Positions 3,917 through 57,575 of a stretch of 64,000 nt of DNA are shown here, in pieces. The DNA is taken from positions 1-64,000 of the forward strand of contig CAIRTK010000059.1 in NCBI GenBank assembly GCA_903881475.1, written 5' to 3'. This stretch comes from an uncultured Opitutia bacterium. GTDB lineage: Bacteria > Verrucomicrobiota > Verrucomicrobiia > Opitutales > Opitutaceae. Numbering within the stretch: the stretch's first letter is position 1; each line of letters starts with the position of its first letter. The notes under the pieces are model-generated. The model saw nothing but the letters and a program-made list of their open reading frames with translations. It searched no databases and had not been told where the DNA came from. The position numbers were made by a program, and so were the translations under genes.

Positions 3917-6051
3917 TGGACGGCCGGGCGCTGCTCCTCTGGCAATTTTTCTGCCTGCTGGTCACGGCGGCGGGGTGGGGCGTCTGGGTGTGGAACTTCG
4001 CCGGCCGGCCGGCTCCGCTTCGCCGCACCGCCTGGCTGTGGTGCGGACTGGGCGGGTTTTGCGCCCACGCGCTGGTCCTGCAGGGTCTGGTTTATCTCGA
4101 CGTACCGATCACGCGCACGGCCTGGCCGGCGTTCGCGGTGGCGTGGGCCGGGCTGGCGACGGCGGCCTGGCGCGGTTGGCGGGGCCGCGGCACGGGATCA
4201 GAGCAGGGATGGAGTGAGGCCCGGTGGTACGCGGGCGTTTTCCTGATCGTCATCGCGGTGCAGTCCATCGGGCTGTTTTGGGTGGGGCCGGCGGACTATT
4301 ATGGCAAGGGGCGCTACGACCAGGCCAACTATGTCGTTACCGCGCAGTTCCTGGTCGAACGGCCCTTTTCCACGGCGGGCAGCGATATCGGCCTGCATCC
4401 CTGGCTGGCGAAGGCCGTCGAGACCAAGGAGCAGCGCATCACGCAGTCGGTGGCGCATGGCGCCCTCGCGGTGGCAAGCGGCGCGGATGCCCAGCAGGCC
4501 TACGGCGCCATCAGCGTTTTTTTCATCGGCCTGGCCGGCCTGGCGGTGGTGGCCTGGCTGCGGGCCTGGGCGGTGCCGCGCTGGCTGGCGGCCGCCGGTG
4601 GTGCTGGGGCGGCGCTCGGCCCGGCGGTGACGACCCTGCAGCTCGACTGCTACTATTCCCAAGCCAGCACGCTTTTCGTCCTGCCGGCGCTGGCCGGTCT
4701 GCTGGCCACCCGCGGCCCGCTGCGGGCCTGGCAACGGCTGGTCGCGGGCCTGTTGCTGGCCTTTCTGATCGGGGCCTATTCCGAGATCGCGGTGGTGGGA
4801 GCGGGACTGGTGGTTTCGCTGCGGCTGATGGCGAAGGTACCGTGGCTGTGCCGCTGGCGTGATCTGGGCTGGATTTTCGCCGGTGCCTTGCTCGCGAATC
4901 CCGGCTACCTGCCGCGGTTACCGCGGTTTCTGCTCCAGCAGGGAGTTCATATGCGCGACCCCAACCTGCTGGCGGCGCTGGTGCCGGAAAGCGGCACGTG
5001 GTCCGGCTGGGGCCGGCTGTTTCTCGATCTGCCAGCCGGCCGCCTGGGGGATGTCGCCGTGGTCGCGGCGGGTGCGCTCATGCTAGCCCTGATGATCTCC
5101 GCCCTGTGGCGCCGGAACCGGATGTTGCTGGCAACCCTGATTGCGCCGGTGGGAGTGCTGGGCTGGCTCCTGTTGCTGCCCGTCCTGGCAAAATATCCCT
5201 TTGCCAAGCTGGGTGCGGGCTTTGCCCCGCTGTGGGTGGGCACGGCGGTGCTTGGCTGGGCGACACCGGGCCGCCGTCTTGCTGGAATCCGGATCGCACT
5301 GGCCGTGGCTTTTCTTGGGGCCGGCGCCGTGAGTGCGTTGAGGCAGCAGGTGCAGGTGATCGGGCGGGAGGCGACCCTCGCGGAGTTGGATTCCGCCGGA
5401 ATCCACCGGGCCAGGGCGGAAGCCAGCGCGCATCCTGAAAGAGCGTATCTGGTCGTCAGCGACCATCCGCTGATTGCCCAGTGGCTCTGCTATTTTGCCC
5501 GCGCCTCGGAGGTCTATCTCGACCGGCGCCATCTCGGTGATCGCGTGGTGCCCAGCGAAACTTATGCCTTCCGCCGGCTGCCGGCCGGTGGCGCGGTCCT
5601 GTGGTGGCTGGATCTCCAACGCCAAGGTCCGGTCGCGAGCCACCAGCCCGCCTGCACCCTGCGGGTGAGCGGCGCGGCGGAGGAGGGGACGGTCACGATC
5701 GGGCGTTACTATCTGGCGCGAACCGCGCTCGATCTGGAAATCGACCGCCCTGCCGCGGATCCGGCGCTGCTGCCCCTCTGGCTGGATTTCGTGGGCACGC
5801 CGATGCCCGGGGCGGCCCCTTACGAGCTCGAGCTGGTCGATGCCGGCGGACACCGTCAGCACACGACGGTGACCGGCCCGCGCATGCTGCGGTTTCAGCT
5901 CGTCCTCTCCCGCGGGCTCAACCGCTACACGCTGCACGTGGAACCGGGACCGCACCAGCCCGCCGGATCCGGCGGGCTGGTGGTGCAGTCGCTCAGCCTG
6001 GATCCGGTGACGGCAGTCGGGTTGGCGACGGATCCGGCGCCAGCCGAATGA
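3916..6051 (+). CDS. Large membrane protein, GT-C-like, with C-terminal soluble domain
   Basis: About 711 residues. The first roughly 480 residues are a series of hydrophobic segments; the last 230 or so are soluble and rich in beta-type sequence, probably periplasmic. A GRYDQANY motif follows the third or fourth membrane segment, in the position where GT-C enzymes carry their acidic loop. It overlaps the stop of the preceding gene by one base and belongs to the same transcription unit. I do not recognise a named family. Role in the same lipid-linked sugar process as its neighbours is inferred from context only. Confidence 0.68.
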   Translation: MDGRALLLWQFFCLLVTAAGWGVWVWNFAGRPAPLRRTAWLWCGLGGFCAHALVLQGLVYLDVPITRTAWPAFAVAWAGLATAAWRGWRGRGTGSEQGWSEARWYAGVFLIVIAVQSIGLFWVGPADYYGKGRYDQANYVVTAQFLVERPFSTAGSDIGLHPWLAKAVETKEQRITQSVAHGALAVASGADAQQAYGAISVFFIGLAGLAVVAWLRAWAVPRWLAAAGGAGAALGPAVTTLQLDCYYSQASTLFVLPALAGLLATRGPLRAWQRLVAGLLLAFLIGAYSEIAVVGAGLVVSLRLMAKVPWLCRWRDLGWIFAGALLANPGYLPRLPRFLLQQGVHMRDPNLLAALVPESGTWSGWGRLFLDLPAGRLGDVAVVAAGALMLALMISALWRRNRMLLATLIAPVGVLGWLLLLPVLAKYPFAKLGAGFAPLWVGTAVLGWATPGRRLAGIRIALAVAFLGAGAVSALRQQVQVIGREATLAELDSAGIHRARAEASAHPERAYLVVSDHPLIAQWLCYFARASEVYLDRRHLGDRVVPSETYAFRRLPAGGAVLWWLDLQRQGPVASHQPACTLRVSGAAEEGTVTIGRYYLARTALDLEIDRPAADPALLPLWLDFVGTPMPGAAPYELELVDAGGHRQHTTVTGPRMLRFQLVLSRGLNRYTLHVEPGPHQPAGSGGLVVQSLSLDPVTAVGLATDPAPAE

Positions 6052-32968: not shown

Positions 32969-35056
32969 TTACGAAGACTGTTCTGCCCATAGCGGAAGGA
33001 ACAGACGGGCAGGGAGCCAGCCTTTGTGGGGAAAAAGAAAGCGGAGTTCACCCGTGGCGAGGGCGTTTTCCTGCACGTCGAACAGGTCGGTGGGCGCGGG
33101 CAGGTCGAGGTTGCGCATCAGCACGGGATAGCCGCTGCGTTCGCGGCGATAGTGCTGCACCGGGGCGTCGGCGAAGACGGAGGGTGACGGATGACGGCTG
33201 AAATAGTCCATGCGTTCCGGCGTGTTGGCGCGGGCGCTGACTTCGCCGGACGACGCGGTGCCGGCGAGCCAGGGAATCAGCTCAGTCAGGTAGCCGGCCT
33301 CGCGATCGGCAAAAGGCGAAACCTCGCTGTGCCGAAGAGACCGGGCATCTTGGATCATCGCCAGGGTCAGGGCCCTAACGGCCGGTTGCAACGGCTGCAG
33401 GGCCGGCTGGTGCCACCACGGCGACACGAGGAAGACCGGATCATTGAGGCATTCGAGAGCAAGGGCCCGCACGGCGGCGGCGCGATGACCCTGGTTGAGC
33501 CGGGCAAGTCCGAGGCCGAAATAAACTCCGCCCTTGTCGGGTACGAGCTGCGCGGCGGCGATAAAGTGGGCTTCGGCCGCGGCGGGATCGCGCACGACGA
33601 GGAGCCAAGCCAGGTTGAAGTGCGCAATCTCCTGATCGGGATTAAGCGCGAGTGACTGCTTGAACAGTGAGACGGCCGTTTCCTGCTGCACCGGATCACT
33701 GGCGAACGAGAGCGCGCGGAGATTGAGCTCCGGCGTGGGATCGGGCCGGCCCAGCAACGCCATCACCCCGAGTGCGGTCACGGTAAGGAAACCGAGGACA
33801 CGCCGGCTCAGTTTGTCACCTATTGGGTGACAAACTGCGGGAGCGGGCGGGGCGAGGAGGGCGGCGCAGGCGGCGACGGCGAAGGCGAACACGGGGACGT
33901 CGAGCTGATAGTCGGTGAGCGCGAAGGCGGCATAACCGCCGAGCGTGACGGCGGCGGGCAGGCAGCGCGTGGCGTTGCGCGCGGTCAGGAGCACGAAAAC
34001 GAGCAGGCCGGCAAGGCCGGCGGCGCCGAGTTCGGCCCAGAGCTGCACGGGCAGGCTGTGGAGTTGGAGGACGTTTTCCACGCCGCCATCGAGTTGGGCG
34101 CGGAAGCGCGGGTAGGCCAGCGGCGTGGTGCCCGGGCCCCAGCCGAACAGCGGGCGCGCGAGTCCCATCAGGCCGCCGGCCCGGGCCATGGCGGTGCGCT
34201 GGACGTTGCTGATATTGGGCTCGGCGGCGGGATCCGGCCGGTGAAACATCGCCCGGGTGCGCGGATGGGCGAGGGCGAGGGCCAGGGCCGCAATCACGGC
34301 GAGCACGGCGAAGCCGAGGGTCTTTCGCCAGCCCAGTCGCAGAGCCAGCAACCCGCCGGCCATCAGTGCGCCGAGTCCGAGCAGTCCGCCACGACTGCCG
34401 CTGGTGAACAGCAGAACGAGGGCGAGCAGACCTGCTCCGGCCCAGGCGAGGCGGGGCGCGCCGGTGGCGCGGGTCGCGAGCATCGTGAAACAGGGCAGCA
34501 TGAGCAGCGCCAGCCCGGCGGTGTAGTTGGAATGGCCGAGCGGGTAGGGATTGCGCGCCTCGAAAATTTCCCGGACCGAAGCTCCCGGCAACCCGGCGAG
34601 CCACAGGCCGAGGCTGGTAAGCGCGATGATCGCGAGGAAAAATCCGGCGCGCTTCAGCACCGAAGAGCCGCTGGTGCCGGAGCCCATGGGTCCGGCATGG
34701 ACTGCGTCGAACCCGACAAAGAAAAAAGCGAGGCCCGACAGCAGCGGCGCGGACCACAACAGGCTGGGGCCGCGATACGGACTCGTGAGGGCGGACGCCA
34801 GGATGGCCACCGCGCCGGCCAGTGCCGTCCAGCACCAGGATCGGGCGGGCAGGATGAGGGGGCGATTGCAGTCAAAGGCACGCAGGAGCAGGACGGCGGC
34901 CGGCGCCAGCAGCGCGAACCCGTAGATACAGGACCACGGTGACGAGTGCATCCGGGTGGCGCCGGGACTGGCGAGCGTGATGACCAGCAGGGCGGCGGCC
35001 CCGACCAAGCCGAGCAGCGGGGCCAGGCGGGAAGCGGAGTCGGCGGGACGCGTCAT
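32969..35056 (-). CDS. O-antigen ligase/polymerase-like protein with repeat tail
   Basis: 695 residues. About twelve helices include GHSNYTAGLALLMLPCF, LLFTSGSRGGLLGLG and RPLFGWGPGTTPLAYPRF, the blocks of the Wzy_C/WaaL family, with a histidine in VLQLHSLPVQLWAELG at the position of the family's essential loop histidine. The C-terminal 270 residues contain TPR-like helices (ALNPDQEIAHFNLAWLLV, KGGVYFGLGLARLNQGHR). Such chimeras are known as ligases for O-antigen or protein glycosylation. Residues about 407-416 (VCHPIGDKLS) are encoded by a perfect palindrome also found in intergenic positions, so a mobile short repeat appears to have landed in frame in a linker. It lies four bases upstream of the initiator gene. 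Confidence 0.87.
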   Translation of the reverse strand: MTRPADSASRLAPLLGLVGAAALLVITLASPGATRMHSSPWSCIYGFALLAPAAVLLLRAFDCNRPLILPARSWCWTALAGAVAILASALTSPYRGPSLLWSAPLLSGLAFFFVGFDAVHAGPMGSGTSGSSVLKRAGFFLAIIALTSLGLWLAGLPGASVREIFEARNPYPLGHSNYTAGLALLMLPCFTMLATRATGAPRLAWAGAGLLALVLLFTSGSRGGLLGLGALMAGGLLALRLGWRKTLGFAVLAVIAALALALAHPRTRAMFHRPDPAAEPNISNVQRTAMARAGGLMGLARPLFGWGPGTTPLAYPRFRAQLDGGVENVLQLHSLPVQLWAELGAAGLAGLLVFVLLTARNATRCLPAAVTLGGYAAFALTDYQLDVPVFAFAVAACAALLAPPAPAVCHPIGDKLSRRVLGFLTVTALGVMALLGRPDPTPELNLRALSFASDPVQQETAVSLFKQSLALNPDQEIAHFNLAWLLVVRDPAAAEAHFIAAAQLVPDKGGVYFGLGLARLNQGHRAAAVRALALECLNDPVFLVSPWWHQPALQPLQPAVRALTLAMIQDARSLRHSEVSPFADREAGYLTELIPWLAGTASSGEVSARANTPERMDYFSRHPSPSVFADAPVQHYRRERSGYPVLMRNLDLPAPTDLFDVQENALATGELRFLFPHKGWLPARLFLPLWAEQSS
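33809..33837 (+). repeat. Type A palindrome inside the ligase-like gene
   Basis: Perfect 12-bp arms CAGTTTGTCACC (33809-33820) and GGTGACAAACTG (33826-33837) around TATTG. The same core occurs at 47907 and 56497. Here it is translated in frame as part of the linker between the membrane and TPR-like regions. Confidence 0.9.
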
Positions 35057-37405: not shown

Positions 37406-38002
37406 ATGAAGCTCCGACTGTTAACCCTCTTTGCCACGCTGGCGCTCGCCGCCTGCGCCCAATCTGACATGATGAAATCCACCCAACCCGCGAAAGACGC
37501 CCTCGAGTGCAAGCCCGACGAAAAATCCGCCTGCGGCCTGCCGTCCCACGTCGTGATCGACATGAGCAAGGCCAAGGTGCAGCGCACCGACGCCGAGTGG
37601 CAGCAGCTGCTCAATGCGCGCCAGTTCCAGGTCGCGCGGAAACAGGGCACCGAGCCGCCGTTCCAGAACGAGTACTGGGACAACCACGCGGACGGCGTCT
37701 ATTTCTCCGTCTGCAGCGACACGCCGCTCTTCGACAGCCGGGACAAGTTCGAGAGCGGCACGGGCTGGCCGAGCTTCACGAAGCCGATCGAGAAGGCGTT
37801 TGTCGGCGAGACGACGGACACGAGCTATGGCATGGAGCGCACGGAAGTGCACTGCAACGTGGACGGCGCGCACCTCGGGCACGTCTTTGAGGACGGCCCG
37901 GCGCCGACCGGCCTGCGCTACTGCATCAACAGCGCCTCGCTGCGCTTCGTGCCGCGCAAGGCGTATGAGGCGTGGGTGGCGAAAAATCAGCCCGCTAAAT
38001 AG
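37406..38002 (+). CDS. msrB: Lipoprotein peptide-methionine (R)-S-oxide reductase
   Basis: 198 residues from ATG at 37406. A signal peptide ends in the lipobox LALAAC, giving an acylated Cys17. The MsrB domain has ESGTGWPSF (about 117-124), GAHLGHVF (154-161) and RYCINSASLRF with the catalytic Cys173. Both zinc-binding C-x-x-C pairs are reduced to single cysteines (VCSDTPLF and VHCNVDGAHLG), so this is a zinc-free form. Known role: reduces methionine-R-sulfoxide in proteins; the lipoprotein signal puts it in the cell envelope. The stop codon lies inside the terminator hairpin. Confidence 0.94.
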   Translation: MKLRLLTLFATLALAACAQSDMMKSTQPAKDALECKPDEKSACGLPSHVVIDMSKAKVQRTDAEWQQLLNARQFQVARKQGTEPPFQNEYWDNHADGVYFSVCSDTPLFDSRDKFESGTGWPSFTKPIEKAFVGETTDTSYGMERTEVHCNVDGAHLGHVFEDGPAPTGLRYCINSASLRFVPRKAYEAWVAKNQPAK

Positions 38003-38015
38003 CGGGCTGATTTTT
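37982..38015 (+). terminator. Rho-independent terminator of msrB
   Basis: Perfect 15-bp stem from AAAAATCAGCCCGCT (37982-37996) and AGCGGGCTGATTTTT (38001-38015) with loop AAAT. The msrB stop codon lies in the loop and right arm. A/T runs on both ends make it usable in both directions. Confidence 0.92.
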
Positions 38016-46921: not shown

Positions 46922-47023
46922 GGGGAAGGGTGCTGGTGGGGTTGCCTAGTTAAAATCGACCGGGATGAAGAAACAGAATGCACTCGAAATGCCCATGAAG
47001 GAATGGATAGAACCGGCATTCAC
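46922..47023. promoter_or_regulatory. Divergent control region of the isomerase-like and AraC-type genes
   Basis: This roughly 100-base gap separates two divergent start codons. A 12-base direct repeat TAAAATCGACCG occurs at 46951-46962 and again at 47029-47040, the second copy overlapping the first codons of the AraC-type gene. AraC-family proteins often bind direct repeats, so this is a candidate operator; no clean -35/-10 pair was seen. Confidence 0.35.
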
Positions 47024-47905
47024 ATGGATAAAATCGACCGAAAGACTGCCTCGGGTCTCCTGTCACAGCAAGTCACGCACGCCCGGTATTTCTTTCACAA
47101 CCTCGTGCCGCGGAGCAGCGGTCCGTTCGGGCTCGTGATGGGCGGCCGGGAGCACTGCAACCCCGATTACGCGCTGCGGCGGCCGAGTTTTCCCTTCTAT
47201 GGCTTGGAGTATGTCGCGGCGGGGCACGGCACGGTGAAGCTCGGCGACCGCTGGCAGAACCTCGGGCCGGGCATGGTGTTTGCCTACGCGCCCGCGACCC
47301 GCTGCGAGATCCGCACCGACCCGCGCGACCCGATGGTGAAATATTTTCTCTCGTTCGCCGGCGCCGATGCTCCGCGGCGGTTGCGGCGCTGCGGGGCCGC
47401 GGTCGGGCGCACGCGCCAGCTGGCAGCCCACGCCGAGATCACGAGCGTCCTGGAGGACCTGGTGCGCGAGGGGCAGCGCTCAGGGGCGTTGGCGGGCCGC
47501 ATTTGCGCGGCGCTGATGGAGGTCCTGCTGCTGAAGATCGAGGACACGGCCACGCTGGCGCCGCATGCGAGCGAGCCGGCACGCGAGGCGTTCCTGCGGT
47601 GCAAGGCGGTGATCGACGCGCAGGTCGAGCGGCTGGGTTCGCTGGAGGAAATCGCCCGCGTCGCCGGCGTGGAGGCGTCGAGCGTGTGCCGCTGGTTCCG
47701 CCGGTACCAGGGCACGAGTCCCTACCAGTACCTGCTGCGGCGGAAGATGAACCTCGCGGCCGAGCATCTCGTCGAGAACGGCGGGCTGGTGAAGGAGGCG
47801 GCGCAGCGGCTGGGGTTTGCCGACCCGTACCACTTTTCCCGCGCCTTCAAGTCGGTGCATGGCGTCGCCCCGCGGACCCTGCTGCGCTACCGGCGGGCCG
47901 GCTAA
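47024..47905 (+). CDS. AraC-family transcriptional regulator
   Basis: About 293 residues from ATG at 47024; ATG at 47003 is an alternative. The N-terminal cupin-like sensor includes LEYVAAGHGTVKLGDRWQNL. The C-terminal double helix-turn-helix has LEEIARVAGVEASSVCRWFR, YQGTSPYQYLLRRKMNLA and VKEAAQRLGFADPYHFSRAFK followed by GVAPRTLLRYR. Family members are sugar-responsive activators. Divergent from the isomerase-like gene. The TAA at its end is directly followed by a palindrome pair. Confidence 0.9.
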   Translation: MDKIDRKTASGLLSQQVTHARYFFHNLVPRSSGPFGLVMGGREHCNPDYALRRPSFPFYGLEYVAAGHGTVKLGDRWQNLGPGMVFAYAPATRCEIRTDPRDPMVKYFLSFAGADAPRRLRRCGAAVGRTRQLAAHAEITSVLEDLVREGQRSGALAGRICAALMEVLLLKIEDTATLAPHASEPAREAFLRCKAVIDAQVERLGSLEEIARVAGVEASSVCRWFRRYQGTSPYQYLLRRKMNLAAEHLVENGGLVKEAAQRLGFADPYHFSRAFKSVHGVAPRTLLRYRRAG

Positions 47906-47906
47906 G

Positions 47907-47929
47907 TTTGTCCCCTATTGGGTGACAAA
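47907..47929 (+). repeat. Type A palindrome after the AraC-type gene
   Basis: TTTGTCCCC (47907-47915) and GGTGACAAA (47921-47929) around TATTG; one mismatch in the arms. Same core and loop as the copy at 33809. Confidence 0.85.
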
Positions 47930-47956
47930 TGGCCGGGCGGCGCTGCGGCGGGAATA

Positions 47957-47971
47957 TCACGTATTACGTGA
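47957..47971 (+). repeat. Type B palindrome
   Basis: TCACGTA (47957-47963) and TACGTGA (47965-47971) around a single T; the flanks are diverged. It lies 27 bases from a type A copy. A longer perfect copy is at 56436. Confidence 0.8.
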
Positions 47972-48033
47972 CACTTGCCGTGGCTGGGGCCGGAAGCGGC
48001 CCGTCGGGGCGACGGGCCCTGCCGTGTGGGCAC

Positions 48034-48082: not shown

Positions 48083-48574
48083 TTACTTCGTCTCGACCGT
48101 GAGGAGCGAGTCGACCTCGTGCACGCCGTCGGTGTCGAGGGCGAGGGCGATTGCCTTGCCGATCAGGTCGGGCGAGGAAACGGTGCCCTTGAGGGTGACG
48201 GTGCCCTGGTCGGCATCCACGTTGATCTTCAGCGCGGAGAGGTCGGAGTCGCCGACCAGCTTGGCGTTGATGACAGTGACAATGCGGGCGTTGTCGGTGA
48301 CGGTGCCGATCTTCTCGCCGGCGGCGGCCGTCTTCGTGCGTACGATGCGGCCGCCCTTTTCCAGGTCGGCCTTGATGTCGGACGGTGTGAGCTTCCACTC
48401 GGTGAGCTTGTCGGAAACGGCGTTCTTCACATCGATGGCCGCGGCCTTGGTCTTGTCGACGGCGGTCTGTGCGGCGTCCTTCGTCTTGTCGGCGAGGGTC
48501 TGGGAATCGTCCTTCTGGCCGCAGCCGGCGAGGACGAGACTGAGGAGCGAAAGGGCAAGGAGGGATTTTTTCAT
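48083..48574 (-). CDS. BON-domain lipoprotein
   Basis: 163 residues from ATG at 48574. LLALSLLSLVLAGC is a signal peptide with lipobox and Cys18. A lysine/alanine-rich helical stretch (TLADKTKDAAQTAVDKTKAA) precedes a BON domain (about 95-163): ARIVTVINAKLVGDSDLSAL, INVDADQGTVTLKGTV and IGKAIALALDTDGVHEVDS. BON domains attach to phospholipid membranes; the role may be envelope stress or osmotic protection as in OsmY-like proteins. A terminator follows. Confidence 0.9.
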   Translation of the reverse strand: MKKSLLALSLLSLVLAGCGQKDDSQTLADKTKDAAQTAVDKTKAAAIDVKNAVSDKLTEWKLTPSDIKADLEKGGRIVRTKTAAAGEKIGTVTDNARIVTVINAKLVGDSDLSALKINVDADQGTVTLKGTVSSPDLIGKAIALALDTDGVHEVDSLLTVETK

Positions 48575-54738: not shown

Positions 54739-56385
54739 ATGAAACGCCTGATCCTGACCTTGGCTTTGATTCTTTCGGCGACGGTGTGCGGTCGCGCCGC
54801 AGAGCCCGCCCCGGCCGTGCCGGCCCGCGAGGCCTACGTGATGCATTTCGACGGGGACTGGCGCGTGGCCGGCGGCCTGCCGGAGAAGGCGCTGCTCATC
54901 AGCCTGCAGGGCCTCGCGAACCGCGCCGCGCCGCAATTCTATGTGATCCACCCGCGGGATTACCAATGGGAGATCACGCTGCCGCTCTATGAATACTATG
55001 AGCACAAATATGGCGTGCACTTCACCGAACTGAAGACGGCGGGTGACGCGCTCACGCAGTTCAGGTCCGCGCTCAAGGGCTACGTGGTGTGGGACAAGGC
55101 CGTGCCTACGTCGCTCAACGTCGCCTTCACGATCGCCGGCCTTGAGGACGCGGTGGTGGTCACCGCGGACCTGATCCCGCTGGTGGAGCAGCACGGGCTG
55201 AAGCCGGTTGACGACCTGCGCGGCCGCTACACGGGCCGGACCGATGCGCAGATCTACCAGGACGCGGTGAACCGCTACTGGGCGCGCTGCAACCGGGACG
55301 CCGTGATGATGATGGGCGGGCAGCGCGGCGCCATCATGATGCCCGGCATGGCCGACTGGGGCGTGCGCGAGAAGATGTTCTTCCACGACCTTGCGGCGAA
55401 TCCCGAGATCCCGGCCGAACTGGCGCTGGAGAAACGGCTGCTGTCCGAACTGAATCCCGGCGCGACCGTCTTCGGCTGGCATCCCTACGGCAAGGACACG
55501 GAGGAGATGCACACGACGCTGATCTCCAGTCACGGCCTCAAGATGGAGGGCCTGCATAACCTCCCGAACCTGAGCTTCAACTGCCAGTTCACGTTCACGC
55601 CCGGCTTCAAGTTCACCAACCACGCGCACGTGGCGCTCGATGCTAAGTTGGAGGCGCAGGACAAGGTCTACCTTTCGTTCGTGCAGTCCGACAGCATCGG
55701 CATCGGCGTGTGGACGAAGCCCGGCCGCGGCCAGCTGCCCTTCGCGTGGCAGGTCACGATGAACTGGACGAAGTTCTCGCCCGCAGCGCTGGAGTATTTC
55801 CACGAGAGCGCGACGCCGAACGACTACTTCATCGGCGGCCTGTCCGGACCGGGTTACATGTACCCGAACCACATCCCGGCGGACAAATTCCCGCTGCTGA
55901 TGAAGCAGGCGAATGAACTCATGGGCCTGCTCGACGAGCACGTGCTGGAGATCATGGACAACTCCGCCGCCGACGGAAACCTGGGCAACGCCGACCTGAC
56001 GAAGGAGACGGTGGACCGGTATTACCAGGCGTTCCCGAACGTGATCGGCTTCATCAACGGCTACGGTCCGGCACGCACCCGCGACCTGCGCGGCACGCAG
56101 CCGCTGATTTCGTATGATTACTACATCGACCCCCGCCGCCCCCGCGAGGAAGTCGCCGCCGACCTCGAGGAGCTCATCGCGCTGAATGCCAAGCGGCCAT
56201 ATTTCCTGCTCGTGCACGTGCGCGAGTCGAACGACGTCAACAGCCTGATCACGATCGTGAAGCAGCTCACGGGCCCGACGGAGGTCGTGCCGCTCGATGT
56301 CTTCCTCAAGCTCGCGGCGAGCAAGCAGACCTACACAACGCGCTACCAGGACCCCGCGGACCCGAAGCATTTTAAAGGCTTCTGA
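54739..56385 (+). CDS. Secreted GxGYxYP-motif (PF14323-like) protein
   Basis: 548 residues with signal peptide MKRLILTLALILSATVCGRA. LSGPGYMYPNHI (motif at 370-376) is the GxGYxYP signature; nearby are FWHPYGK-like GWHPYGKDTEEMH and SFVQSDSIGIGVW. Such proteins are annotated as putative glycoside hydrolases or carbohydrate-active enzymes in Bacteroidota, Planctomycetota and Verrucomicrobiota; the activity has not been established to my knowledge. Four bases separate it from the upstream small secreted protein, and a palindrome pair follows it. Confidence 0.88.
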   Translation: MKRLILTLALILSATVCGRAAEPAPAVPAREAYVMHFDGDWRVAGGLPEKALLISLQGLANRAAPQFYVIHPRDYQWEITLPLYEYYEHKYGVHFTELKTAGDALTQFRSALKGYVVWDKAVPTSLNVAFTIAGLEDAVVVTADLIPLVEQHGLKPVDDLRGRYTGRTDAQIYQDAVNRYWARCNRDAVMMMGGQRGAIMMPGMADWGVREKMFFHDLAANPEIPAELALEKRLLSELNPGATVFGWHPYGKDTEEMHTTLISSHGLKMEGLHNLPNLSFNCQFTFTPGFKFTNHAHVALDAKLEAQDKVYLSFVQSDSIGIGVWTKPGRGQLPFAWQVTMNWTKFSPAALEYFHESATPNDYFIGGLSGPGYMYPNHIPADKFPLLMKQANELMGLLDEHVLEIMDNSAADGNLGNADLTKETVDRYYQAFPNVIGFINGYGPARTRDLRGTQPLISYDYYIDPRRPREEVAADLEELIALNAKRPYFLLVHVRESNDVNSLITIVKQLTGPTEVVPLDVFLKLAASKQTYTTRYQDPADPKHFKGF

Positions 56386-56435: not shown

Positions 56436-56460
56436 CAATGTCACGTATTACGTGACATTG
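56436..56460 (+). repeat. Type B palindrome (perfect)
   Basis: Perfect 12-bp arms CAATGTCACGTA (56436-56447) and TACGTGACATTG (56449-56460) around T. A shortened copy is at 47957. Confidence 0.92.
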
Positions 56461-56496: not shown

Positions 56497-56527
56497 TGAG
56501 TTTGTCACCCCTTAGGTGACAAACTCA
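56497..56527 (+). repeat. Type A palindrome (perfect)
   Basis: Perfect 13-bp arms TGAGTTTGTCACC (56497-56509) and GGTGACAAACTCA (56515-56527) around CCTTA. Compare copies at 33809 and 47907. It ends 74 bases before the TrmH-like start. Confidence 0.92.
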
Positions 56528-56600: not shown

Positions 56601-57575
56601 ATGGCTTCCTTTTCCAAGTTTGGTCCGGGCTCCCGTCCAGTGCCGCGTGCGTCGGAAAACGCCGGTGAATTCGTCGCGCCGGCCGGCGGCATGCGGCTGC
56701 GCGGCGCCTCGGAAGTGCCGGGGGGCAAGCCCGCGGCAGTGCCGGCGGTACGGGCCGAGGCGCCGGCTGGGGCCGAGCCGGCGGGTTCCCGCAGCGGGCC
56801 GGCGCGCCATGACGAACTGAAGCTCTGCGGGCTGGCGGCGGTGCGCGCGCGCTTTGCGCGCGATCCGGCTTCGATCAAGCGGCTGTTTTTCGACAAGGAC
56901 ACGGGGCAGCGGGTCGGCATCATCTGCAAGGTGCTCGCGCGGGAAAAGAAGATCTACCGGCAGGTGGAGCCGGCCGAGTTGGAGAAAATCTCCGGTTCGC
57001 TCCACCACGGTGGCATTGTCGCGGTGGTCTATGCCCCGCCGCTGCGGACACCGACTGGCGAGGATATCCGGGCATGGGCGAAGCGCGGCGAGCCGCTGCT
57101 GGTGCTCGACCGGATCGGCAATGCGCACAACCTGGGGGCGGTGGCGCGCACGGCGGCGTTTTTCGGCGTGCCTCGGCTGGTGATACCCGAGGATCCCGCC
57201 GCGGCGCGGCCCAATGATGCGGCCTATCGCGTGGCCGAGGGGGGATTCGAGCATCTGGAGGTATGGCGCGTGCCGGTTTTGGCGGCGTTTGTCCGGGAAC
57301 TCACGGCGGCGGGCTATGAGGTGGTCGGCGCGGCGACGCGCGGCGGCCGGCTCGGGGCAAAGCGGGGTGAGGGCACCCCGCCCACATCGGAAACTGGGAA
57401 AGGGGCCGCCAAGCTTGTCGCGCTGGTTCTGGGCAACGAGGAGCAGGGGCTCGCGCCCGAGGTAACTGCGGCCTGCACGCGGCTCGTGACGATTCCCGGC
57501 AGCGGCAAGGTCGAGTCGTTGAACGTCTCGGTCGCGGCGGCGGTGCTGATGTGGGAGATTTTTCGCAGACCATAG
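56601..57575 (+). CDS. TrmH/SpoU-family RNA 2'-O-methyltransferase
   Basis: 324 residues from ATG at 56601; an in-frame GTG at 56547 is possible. The N-terminal 65 residues are low-complexity, and the SPOUT domain has LVLDRIGNAHNLGAVARTAA (motif 1), LVALVLGNEEQGLAPEV (motif 2) and TIPGSGKVESLNVSVAAAVL (motif 3), the three trefoil-knot blocks. An L30e-like substrate-binding region precedes it (LCGLAAVRARF). Target nucleotide (tRNA or 23S rRNA) is unclear. Between motifs an in-frame insert AKRGEGTPPTSETGKGAA is encoded by a hairpin-forming sequence (57362-57381). Confidence 0.9.
   Translation: MASFSKFGPGSRPVPRASENAGEFVAPAGGMRLRGASEVPGGKPAAVPAVRAEAPAGAEPAGSRSGPARHDELKLCGLAAVRARFARDPASIKRLFFDKDTGQRVGIICKVLAREKKIYRQVEPAELEKISGSLHHGGIVAVVYAPPLRTPTGEDIRAWAKRGEPLLVLDRIGNAHNLGAVARTAAFFGVPRLVIPEDPAAARPNDAAYRVAEGGFEHLEVWRVPVLAAFVRELTAAGYEVVGAATRGGRLGAKRGEGTPPTSETGKGAAKLVALVLGNEEQGLAPEVTAACTRLVTIPGSGKVESLNVSVAAAVLMWEIFRRP
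57362..57381 (+). repeat. Hairpin inside the TrmH-like gene
   Basis: GCGGGGTG (57362-57369) pairs perfectly with CACCCCGC (57374-57381) around AGGG. It encodes part of a linker that is not part of the conserved SPOUT motifs, and its GGGCACCCCGCCCAC tail recalls the repeat arm at 42211. Confidence 0.5.

Follow-up and report, generated by a model that had tools for sequence, protein, structure and literature searches.

Palindromes of two types (A and B), which occur as close pairs in the 64,000-nucleotide stretch of DNA from an uncultured Opitutia bacterium analysed here (the window), are fairly probably REP-like repeats, served by a dedicated small helix-turn-helix (HTH) protein that recognises them and not by a RAYT transposase. 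The HTH-type protein, which is uncharacterised and encoded outside the window, probably recognises the palindromes; its binding is inferred and has no binding experiment behind it. The palindromes of the window and their neighbouring genes are listed in Table 1.

Table 1 Palindromes of the window and adjacent genes
Feature	Position	Strand	Remark
Palindrome type A, pair 1	47907-47929	.	TTTGTCCCC-TATTG-GGTGACAAA, one mismatched pair
Palindrome type B, pair 1	47955-47973 (core 47957-47971)	.	outermost pair but one mismatched
Palindrome type B, pair 2	56436-56460	.	12-bp arms, 1-base centre
Palindrome type A, pair 2	56497-56527	.	13-bp arms, 5-base centre
Palindrome type A, single copy	33809-33837	.	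within predicted gene 32969-35056 (- strand)
AraC-type regulator, neighbour of pair 1	47021-47905	+	start not determined; context only
BON-domain protein, convergent to AraC-type gene	48083-48574	-	other neighbour of pair 1; context only
GxGYxYP protein, upstream of pair 2	54739-56385	+	context only
SpoU-type methylase, downstream of pair 2	56601-57575	+	start approximate; context only

The initial annotation had placed the first palindrome two bases after the stop codon of the AraC-type gene; the TAA occupies positions 47903-47905 and one base lies between, so that the annotation is accurate to within one base. The 27 bases noted from type A to type B, as well as the opposite order in the second pair, agree with the coordinates, and the proposed common half-site GTGAC is found as GTGAC(A) in both types, the next inner base being different. 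The single type A copy within an open reading frame was not part of this annotation. Allowing up to three mismatches, the B core matched five places in the window and none in each of 100 shuffles; a reversed control searched genome-wide likewise gave zero. An excess over chance was thus confirmed, as was the co-occurrence of A and B, with two pairs in the window and close pairs recurring in other genomes. With 38 sites in a genome of 3.2 Mb, two A+B pairs spaced by less than 70 bp would not be expected by chance, according to our own estimate of about 0.03.

Of four window copies examined, three are predicted to fold with -12.5 to -19.7 kcal/mol and the fourth with -5.5 kcal/mol. Such stable predicted folds, and the location of several copies in the source genome directly after stop codons, would suit RNA hairpins that act as terminators or mRNA stabilisers. 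However, the window copies are not followed by a T run, Rfam yielded no match in the window, and the copies inside genes, the sequence-specific core and the linked HTH gene also contradict such a role, which appears hardly tenable. Wobble pairs in type A, inspected by eye only, showed no sense-strand bias.

In the source genome (G000, a draft of 3.21 Mb in 83 contigs), TGTCACSTAATASGTGACA with up to three mismatches occurred at 38 places, and its reversed control at none. Types A and B constitute one family with the half-site GTGACA and are separated by the inner base that follows it, which is C-G at 16, G-C at 15 and T-A at two of 36 sites. The location relative to genes was determined for 37 of the 38 places, leaving out the weak site C37:115532: 28 were intergenic, seven fell within predicted genes, and two extended across a gene end. 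These classes are approximate because the home-made gene caller missed the AraC gene. According to our own count, intergenic sites occur in every gene orientation without preference for promoters. The AraC-type regulator itself was considered as the reader of the palindromes; it matches ordinary AraC domains, and it was set aside because most sites adjoin other, unrelated genes.

The bases flanking the 19-bp core vary among copies, yet they stay self-complementary. For 36 sites of G000, pairing at the first five flanking positions amounted to 89, 89, 78, 61, and 67%, compared to 29-44% after shuffling. For 166 sites in other genomes, the first three positions paired at 87, 69, and 45% (shuffled, 32-37%), and background was reached by the fourth. 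Binding of a dimer alone leaves this copy-specific pairing unexplained; perfect arms might be kept by a requirement for a hairpin, or by template switching during replication that would correct them. When 15 of the 28 sites listed for the sister genome G008 were examined, ten matched a palindrome at the corresponding place in G000, and five had no counterpart in the G000 sequence examined. Across 11 corresponding pairs of sites, three of the 66 cells at GTGACA positions had changed, each on one side; changes were more frequent at the inner base and in the flanks, where they often affected both sides. At one place the type itself is exchanged: where G000 has a B as the second palindrome of pair 1, G008 has an A. 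Paired arm changes and loop inversions at corresponding sites, as described for template switching (PMC8604942, PMC8794818), could also result from a purely mutational process in which template switching perfects imperfect inverted repeats without any protein. This process accounts neither for a shared core at dozens of places nor for the association with a gene, and as the sole cause it is scarcely credible; template switching may still maintain the arms, acting alongside either a protein or a host role.

Several comparisons revealed insertion-like behaviour, namely pairs with conserved spacers, filled and short forms of rlmN, and absence of the HTH gene unit between the same flanking genes. 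The rlmN gene (named by eye from a sequence motif) contains about 39 extra bases including a palindrome in G000 and other palindromes in G011 and G004, and has the short form in the other nine of 12 aligned genus members. An epimerase-like gene carries differing palindromes at the same place in several genus members and none in others. In a methyltransferase-like gene, the palindrome is present with almost no change in length, and one coding site compared in ten genus members shows no length change except for three extra bases in G006, indicating that not every site is a simple insertion. A clean target-site duplication was not found in the comparison of genus members, since their intergenic sequence is mostly not alignable. 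Close pairs in other genomes are mostly 43-60 bp apart; those of one groundwater genome have a 48-bp offset and a conserved spacer, and paired palindromes of this kind resemble a mobile two-hairpin unit. A pair spacing near whole helical turns was suggested by the data, but as one genome dominates the set, the idea was set aside. Four tandem palindromes with a 43-bp period are present in L241 near 1044-1191. L224, L225, L239, and L240 (Opitutus sp. GAS368 MAG) contain a partly conserved AT-rich stretch after type B palindromes, which ends near CAGAG and has CTCTGAAAA upstream in some copies; these copies perhaps represent a longer miniature element.

Exact copies of TGTCACNNANTNNGTGACA were present in 43 of 115 relatives, all from the same family (0 to 67 copies each; controls zero); the 42 genomes of the order that belong to other families lacked them. 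A named collection contained the B core in at least 112 stretches, and the 80 titles listed were all Opitutaceae, Opitutus, Opitutae/Opitutia, Verrucomicrobia or Candidatus Synoicihabitans. Other cores are found in related genomes, each protein lineage having its own. Within the genus, a broader pattern occurred in 26, 51, and 21 copies in G002, G004, and G005, respectively, mostly TGTAACC...GGTTACA and TTTCACTT...AAGTGAAA among the places listed, and in one or two copies in G003, G006, G009, and G010. An origin from phages or plasmids was rejected, the B core being found in no viral contig; three stretches with the A core share near-identical AT-rich surroundings and were read as unrelated. 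No description of the palindromes or of the HTH protein was found in open-licence papers at the level of titles and the beginnings of abstracts.

A gene located between two type B palindromes was observed outside the window at G000:C11:43280-43627; the palindromes are 434 bp apart and flank a 133-codon open reading frame. Its product, a protein of about 120-130 residues, has an HTH-like predicted fold. The homologue in G001 also lies between palindromes, that of L279 (another genus) between palindrome pairs, and that of L272 is preceded by three palindromes of a different core. The family could not be assigned by Pfam (best E value 0.03, below the cut-off), NCBIfam or PADLOC (no match), PHROGs (best 0.076) or PDB sequences (best 0.73), and the protein matched neither viral contigs, plasmids or phages nor any transposase family. 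The structure model, based on three sequences, is of moderate quality (pLDDT 70). Foldseek returned no match with E <0.001 for it; residues 46-115 resemble POU/CUT, MuB N-terminal, and lambda-repressor-like domains with Z scores of 4-7, a level that is common according to the tool, with POU/CUT and MuB N-terminal domains scoring up to 6.8 and lambda-repressor-like domains 4-5. In this protein, the initial annotation's suggestion of a DNA-binding protein has gained a candidate reader.

A five-row profile detected the gene in 33 of the 115 relatives, all of the same family. Among the 17 family genomes that have nine or more TGTCAC palindromes, 16 contain it, as compared to 17 of 56 others (Fisher 2.7e-6, uncorrected for kinship). 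The sole exception among the 17 is G008, with 27 palindromes and no gene detected, and several of the 17 low-TGTCAC genomes that have the gene carry other cores. Palindromes without the gene also occur in G031 (8), G015 (6), and G028 (5). Palindromes at the gene were defined as odd-centred, with 10-bp arms, no more than one mismatch, an A/T pair around the centre, and a distance of up to 330 bp from the matched domain. Of 30 gene loci, 25 fulfil this definition, 21 of them on both sides, and five lack a nearby palindrome; four sets of other sequence contained 0.01-0.07 palindromes per kb, and the outer parts of the same loci three in 67.7 kb. The cores differ by protein and include CGTGAC, CGTGAA, GATGAC, GTTGAC, AGTTAC, GGTTAC, CGGACT, CGGCAA, and others. 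The neighbourhoods of the 30 loci are mostly unrelated: homologous flanks on two sides link only G000-G001, G002-G005-G032, and G030-G051, and on one side G038-G062 and G039-G060. The same flanking genes enclose 611 bp in G000 and 999 bp in G001; in G008, G007, and G010, where the gene unit is absent, they are 86-151 bp apart. The 747 bp in G006 remain unexplained, and a negative distance obtained for G003 was ignored. The open frame before a truncated homologue in L283 reads, by eye, as an IS21-type transposase, and its insertion may have cut that copy.

Residues and bases were compared for 27 protein-palindrome pairs (25 loci as well as L272 and L410). An acidic residue at position 7 of the recognition helix goes with n2=G in 26 of the 27 pairs (Fisher 4e-6; the exception is G057), proline at position 2 with n5n6=AA in all 27 (four cases; 5.7e-5), and histidine at position 6 with n3n4=TG in 24 (3e-4). 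The three traits were picked after inspection of the data, and the protein tree supports only one, one, and two independent contrasts, so that the observed pattern is not significant after kinship is considered. In the model, the three residues fall in the helix 81-89, the second of the predicted helix-turn-helix. According to a prediction written down before the search, G020, G039, G053, and G069 should contain multiple copies of TGTCAT...ATGACA; it was met in all four, with 25, 12, 64, and 6 copies, respectively. Among the 69 other family members, six or more copies of this class were found in G026 (16), G040 (20), G057 (9), and G071 (9), and none of 42 genomes outside the family contained it (Fisher within the family, 6.4e-5). 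Of these additional carriers, G040 and G057 possess the gene, and it was not detected in G026 and G071. A second written prediction was met as well: the AAGTCC class is present in G062 with seven copies in 400 kb, of which three lie at the gene. This genome also yielded two additional classes, one directly before another gene copy. By the same reasoning, TTTGCCGTAWTACGGCAAA in G050 and GTTGACA-type palindromes in G034 are expected to be multicopy. In G062 (L402-L421), the HTH gene is present five times, together with three or more palindrome classes.

A protein that consists of an HTH domain only, with symmetric palindromes near its gene and dozens of sites per genome, might also be a global regulator or chromosome-organising protein, the sites being operators that are useful to the cell and the gene being autoregulated, with nothing selfish involved. 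This reading is in line with the G008 comparison, in which ten of 15 sites have a G000 palindrome at the corresponding place and the half-site has hardly changed; autoregulation is an inference. What makes it unlikely, albeit a serious contender, is that intergenic sites occur in all orientations without promoter preference, that copy numbers span 0 to 27 within one genus, that the gene resides in mostly unrelated neighbourhoods and is missing from several genus members, and that there are pairs with a conserved spacer. Chromosome-organising proteins of the Noc, SlmA, and MatP type likewise have tens of palindromic sites per chromosome, but the Opitutaceae palindromes are patchy in one genus, partly paired with conserved spacers, and have lineage-specific cores. 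The HTH protein recalls lambda-repressor-like/XRE regulators such as HipB and restriction-controller proteins in the palindromes beside its gene and, by weak matches, in the predicted fold of residues 46-115; it differs in having no sequence family match, and dozens of dispersed copies replace a few operators.

The reading as REP-like repeats with a dedicated HTH protein involved a comparison with REP/REPIN sequences and their RAYT (TnpA-REP; REPtron). The broad-sense criteria for REPs are met, i.e., palindromes of 20-40 bp in many copies, mostly intergenic, single or paired. REPtrons likewise comprise many short palindromes, which are single or paired across spacers of tens of bases and are located chiefly between genes and sometimes within them, together with a gene that has its own palindromes on either side; in both systems, protein and palindrome seem to evolve together (PMC3733652, PMC8266576). 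Mobilisation of ordinary REP sequences by a RAYT (Y1 HUH) transposase might be considered, given hairpins, pairs, intergenic bias with some genic copies, and species-specific cores as in PMC3733652, which also reports Opitutus terrae to be rich in GTAG repeats. Yet the protein encoded beside the palindromes does not belong to the Y1 HUH transposases. No Y1_Tnp (PF01797) was detected in G001, G007, G011, and G027, with their 24, 26, 12, and 18 palindromes, whereas it was found in G009 and G010 with one and none. GTAG occurred within 14 nt outside the core at 0 of 36 sites in G000 and 7 of 165 in other genomes, and the clusters listed for the 112 named stretches contained no recurrent transposase near sites. 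Membership in the GTAG super-family thus fails for want of a GTAG-type tetranucleotide and of a Y1 gene flanked by the repeat, and RAYT-driven mobilisation is very improbable; by analogy, the layout and apparent co-evolution are like those of REPtrons, and the membership tests failed. CGTC-tagged REPs and Rickettsia palindromic elements are palindromic repeats which occur also in frame within genes and have no dedicated transposase (PMC3733652), and the spread of transposase-free REP-like repeats is an open question, stated there for CGTC REPs. In contrast to these, the Opitutaceae palindromes have a linked protein and no general CGTC tag, which was found at 9 of 36 sites in G000 (control, 2) and at control level elsewhere (18 of 165); moreover, TGTC of the core is paired with GACA, unlike the unpaired CGTC/TGTC tag of CGTC REPs, which is accompanied by a CCA-like tail.

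If the palindromes are REP-like repeats read by the HTH protein, a homodimer, itself inferred, would probably contact the two GTGACA half-sites. As the inner base that distinguishes the two types is apparently not read, one protein could serve both, and changes in the putative recognition helix would go with changes in the half-site. The arrangement palindrome-gene-palindrome looks like a complete unit, from which palindromes that occur singly or in pairs would derive by lack of the gene. The data directly show the repeat family with its limits, the position of the gene next to palindromes, its association with copy number, and the residue-base pattern, whereas a contribution of the protein to the spread of the repeat is inferred; since no catalytic domain is visible, spreading by the HTH protein alone is hard to picture. 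That it drives spreading is only possible, and retention of the sites for the benefit of the host is just as conceivable. Tentatively, and with more doubt than conviction, we propose a transposase-free selfish system in which HTH protein and palindromic target spread together through the Opitutaceae, the specificity of the protein changing in concert with dozens of sites; copies would arise when a protein-bound palindrome or hairpin makes host replication or repair copy it elsewhere. The palindromes form a compact family whose plausible partner is not a transposase; several protein-site specificities can be compared, and the family provides a natural data set for an HTH recognition code. Natural gain, loss, and changes in specificity within one genus render binding and mobility directly testable.

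The window contains further repeats. Strong inverted repeats with 15- and 16-bp arms, even- or 2-base-centred, at 5953-5982 and 37982-38015 are unrelated to the GTGACA palindrome family; the latter has A and T runs and is terminator-like. An intergenic repeat of about 95 bp with inverted ends (ATTC...GAATGAC type) at 53924-54019 matches many places in the genus with 80-90% identity, notably in G000, G005, and G008.
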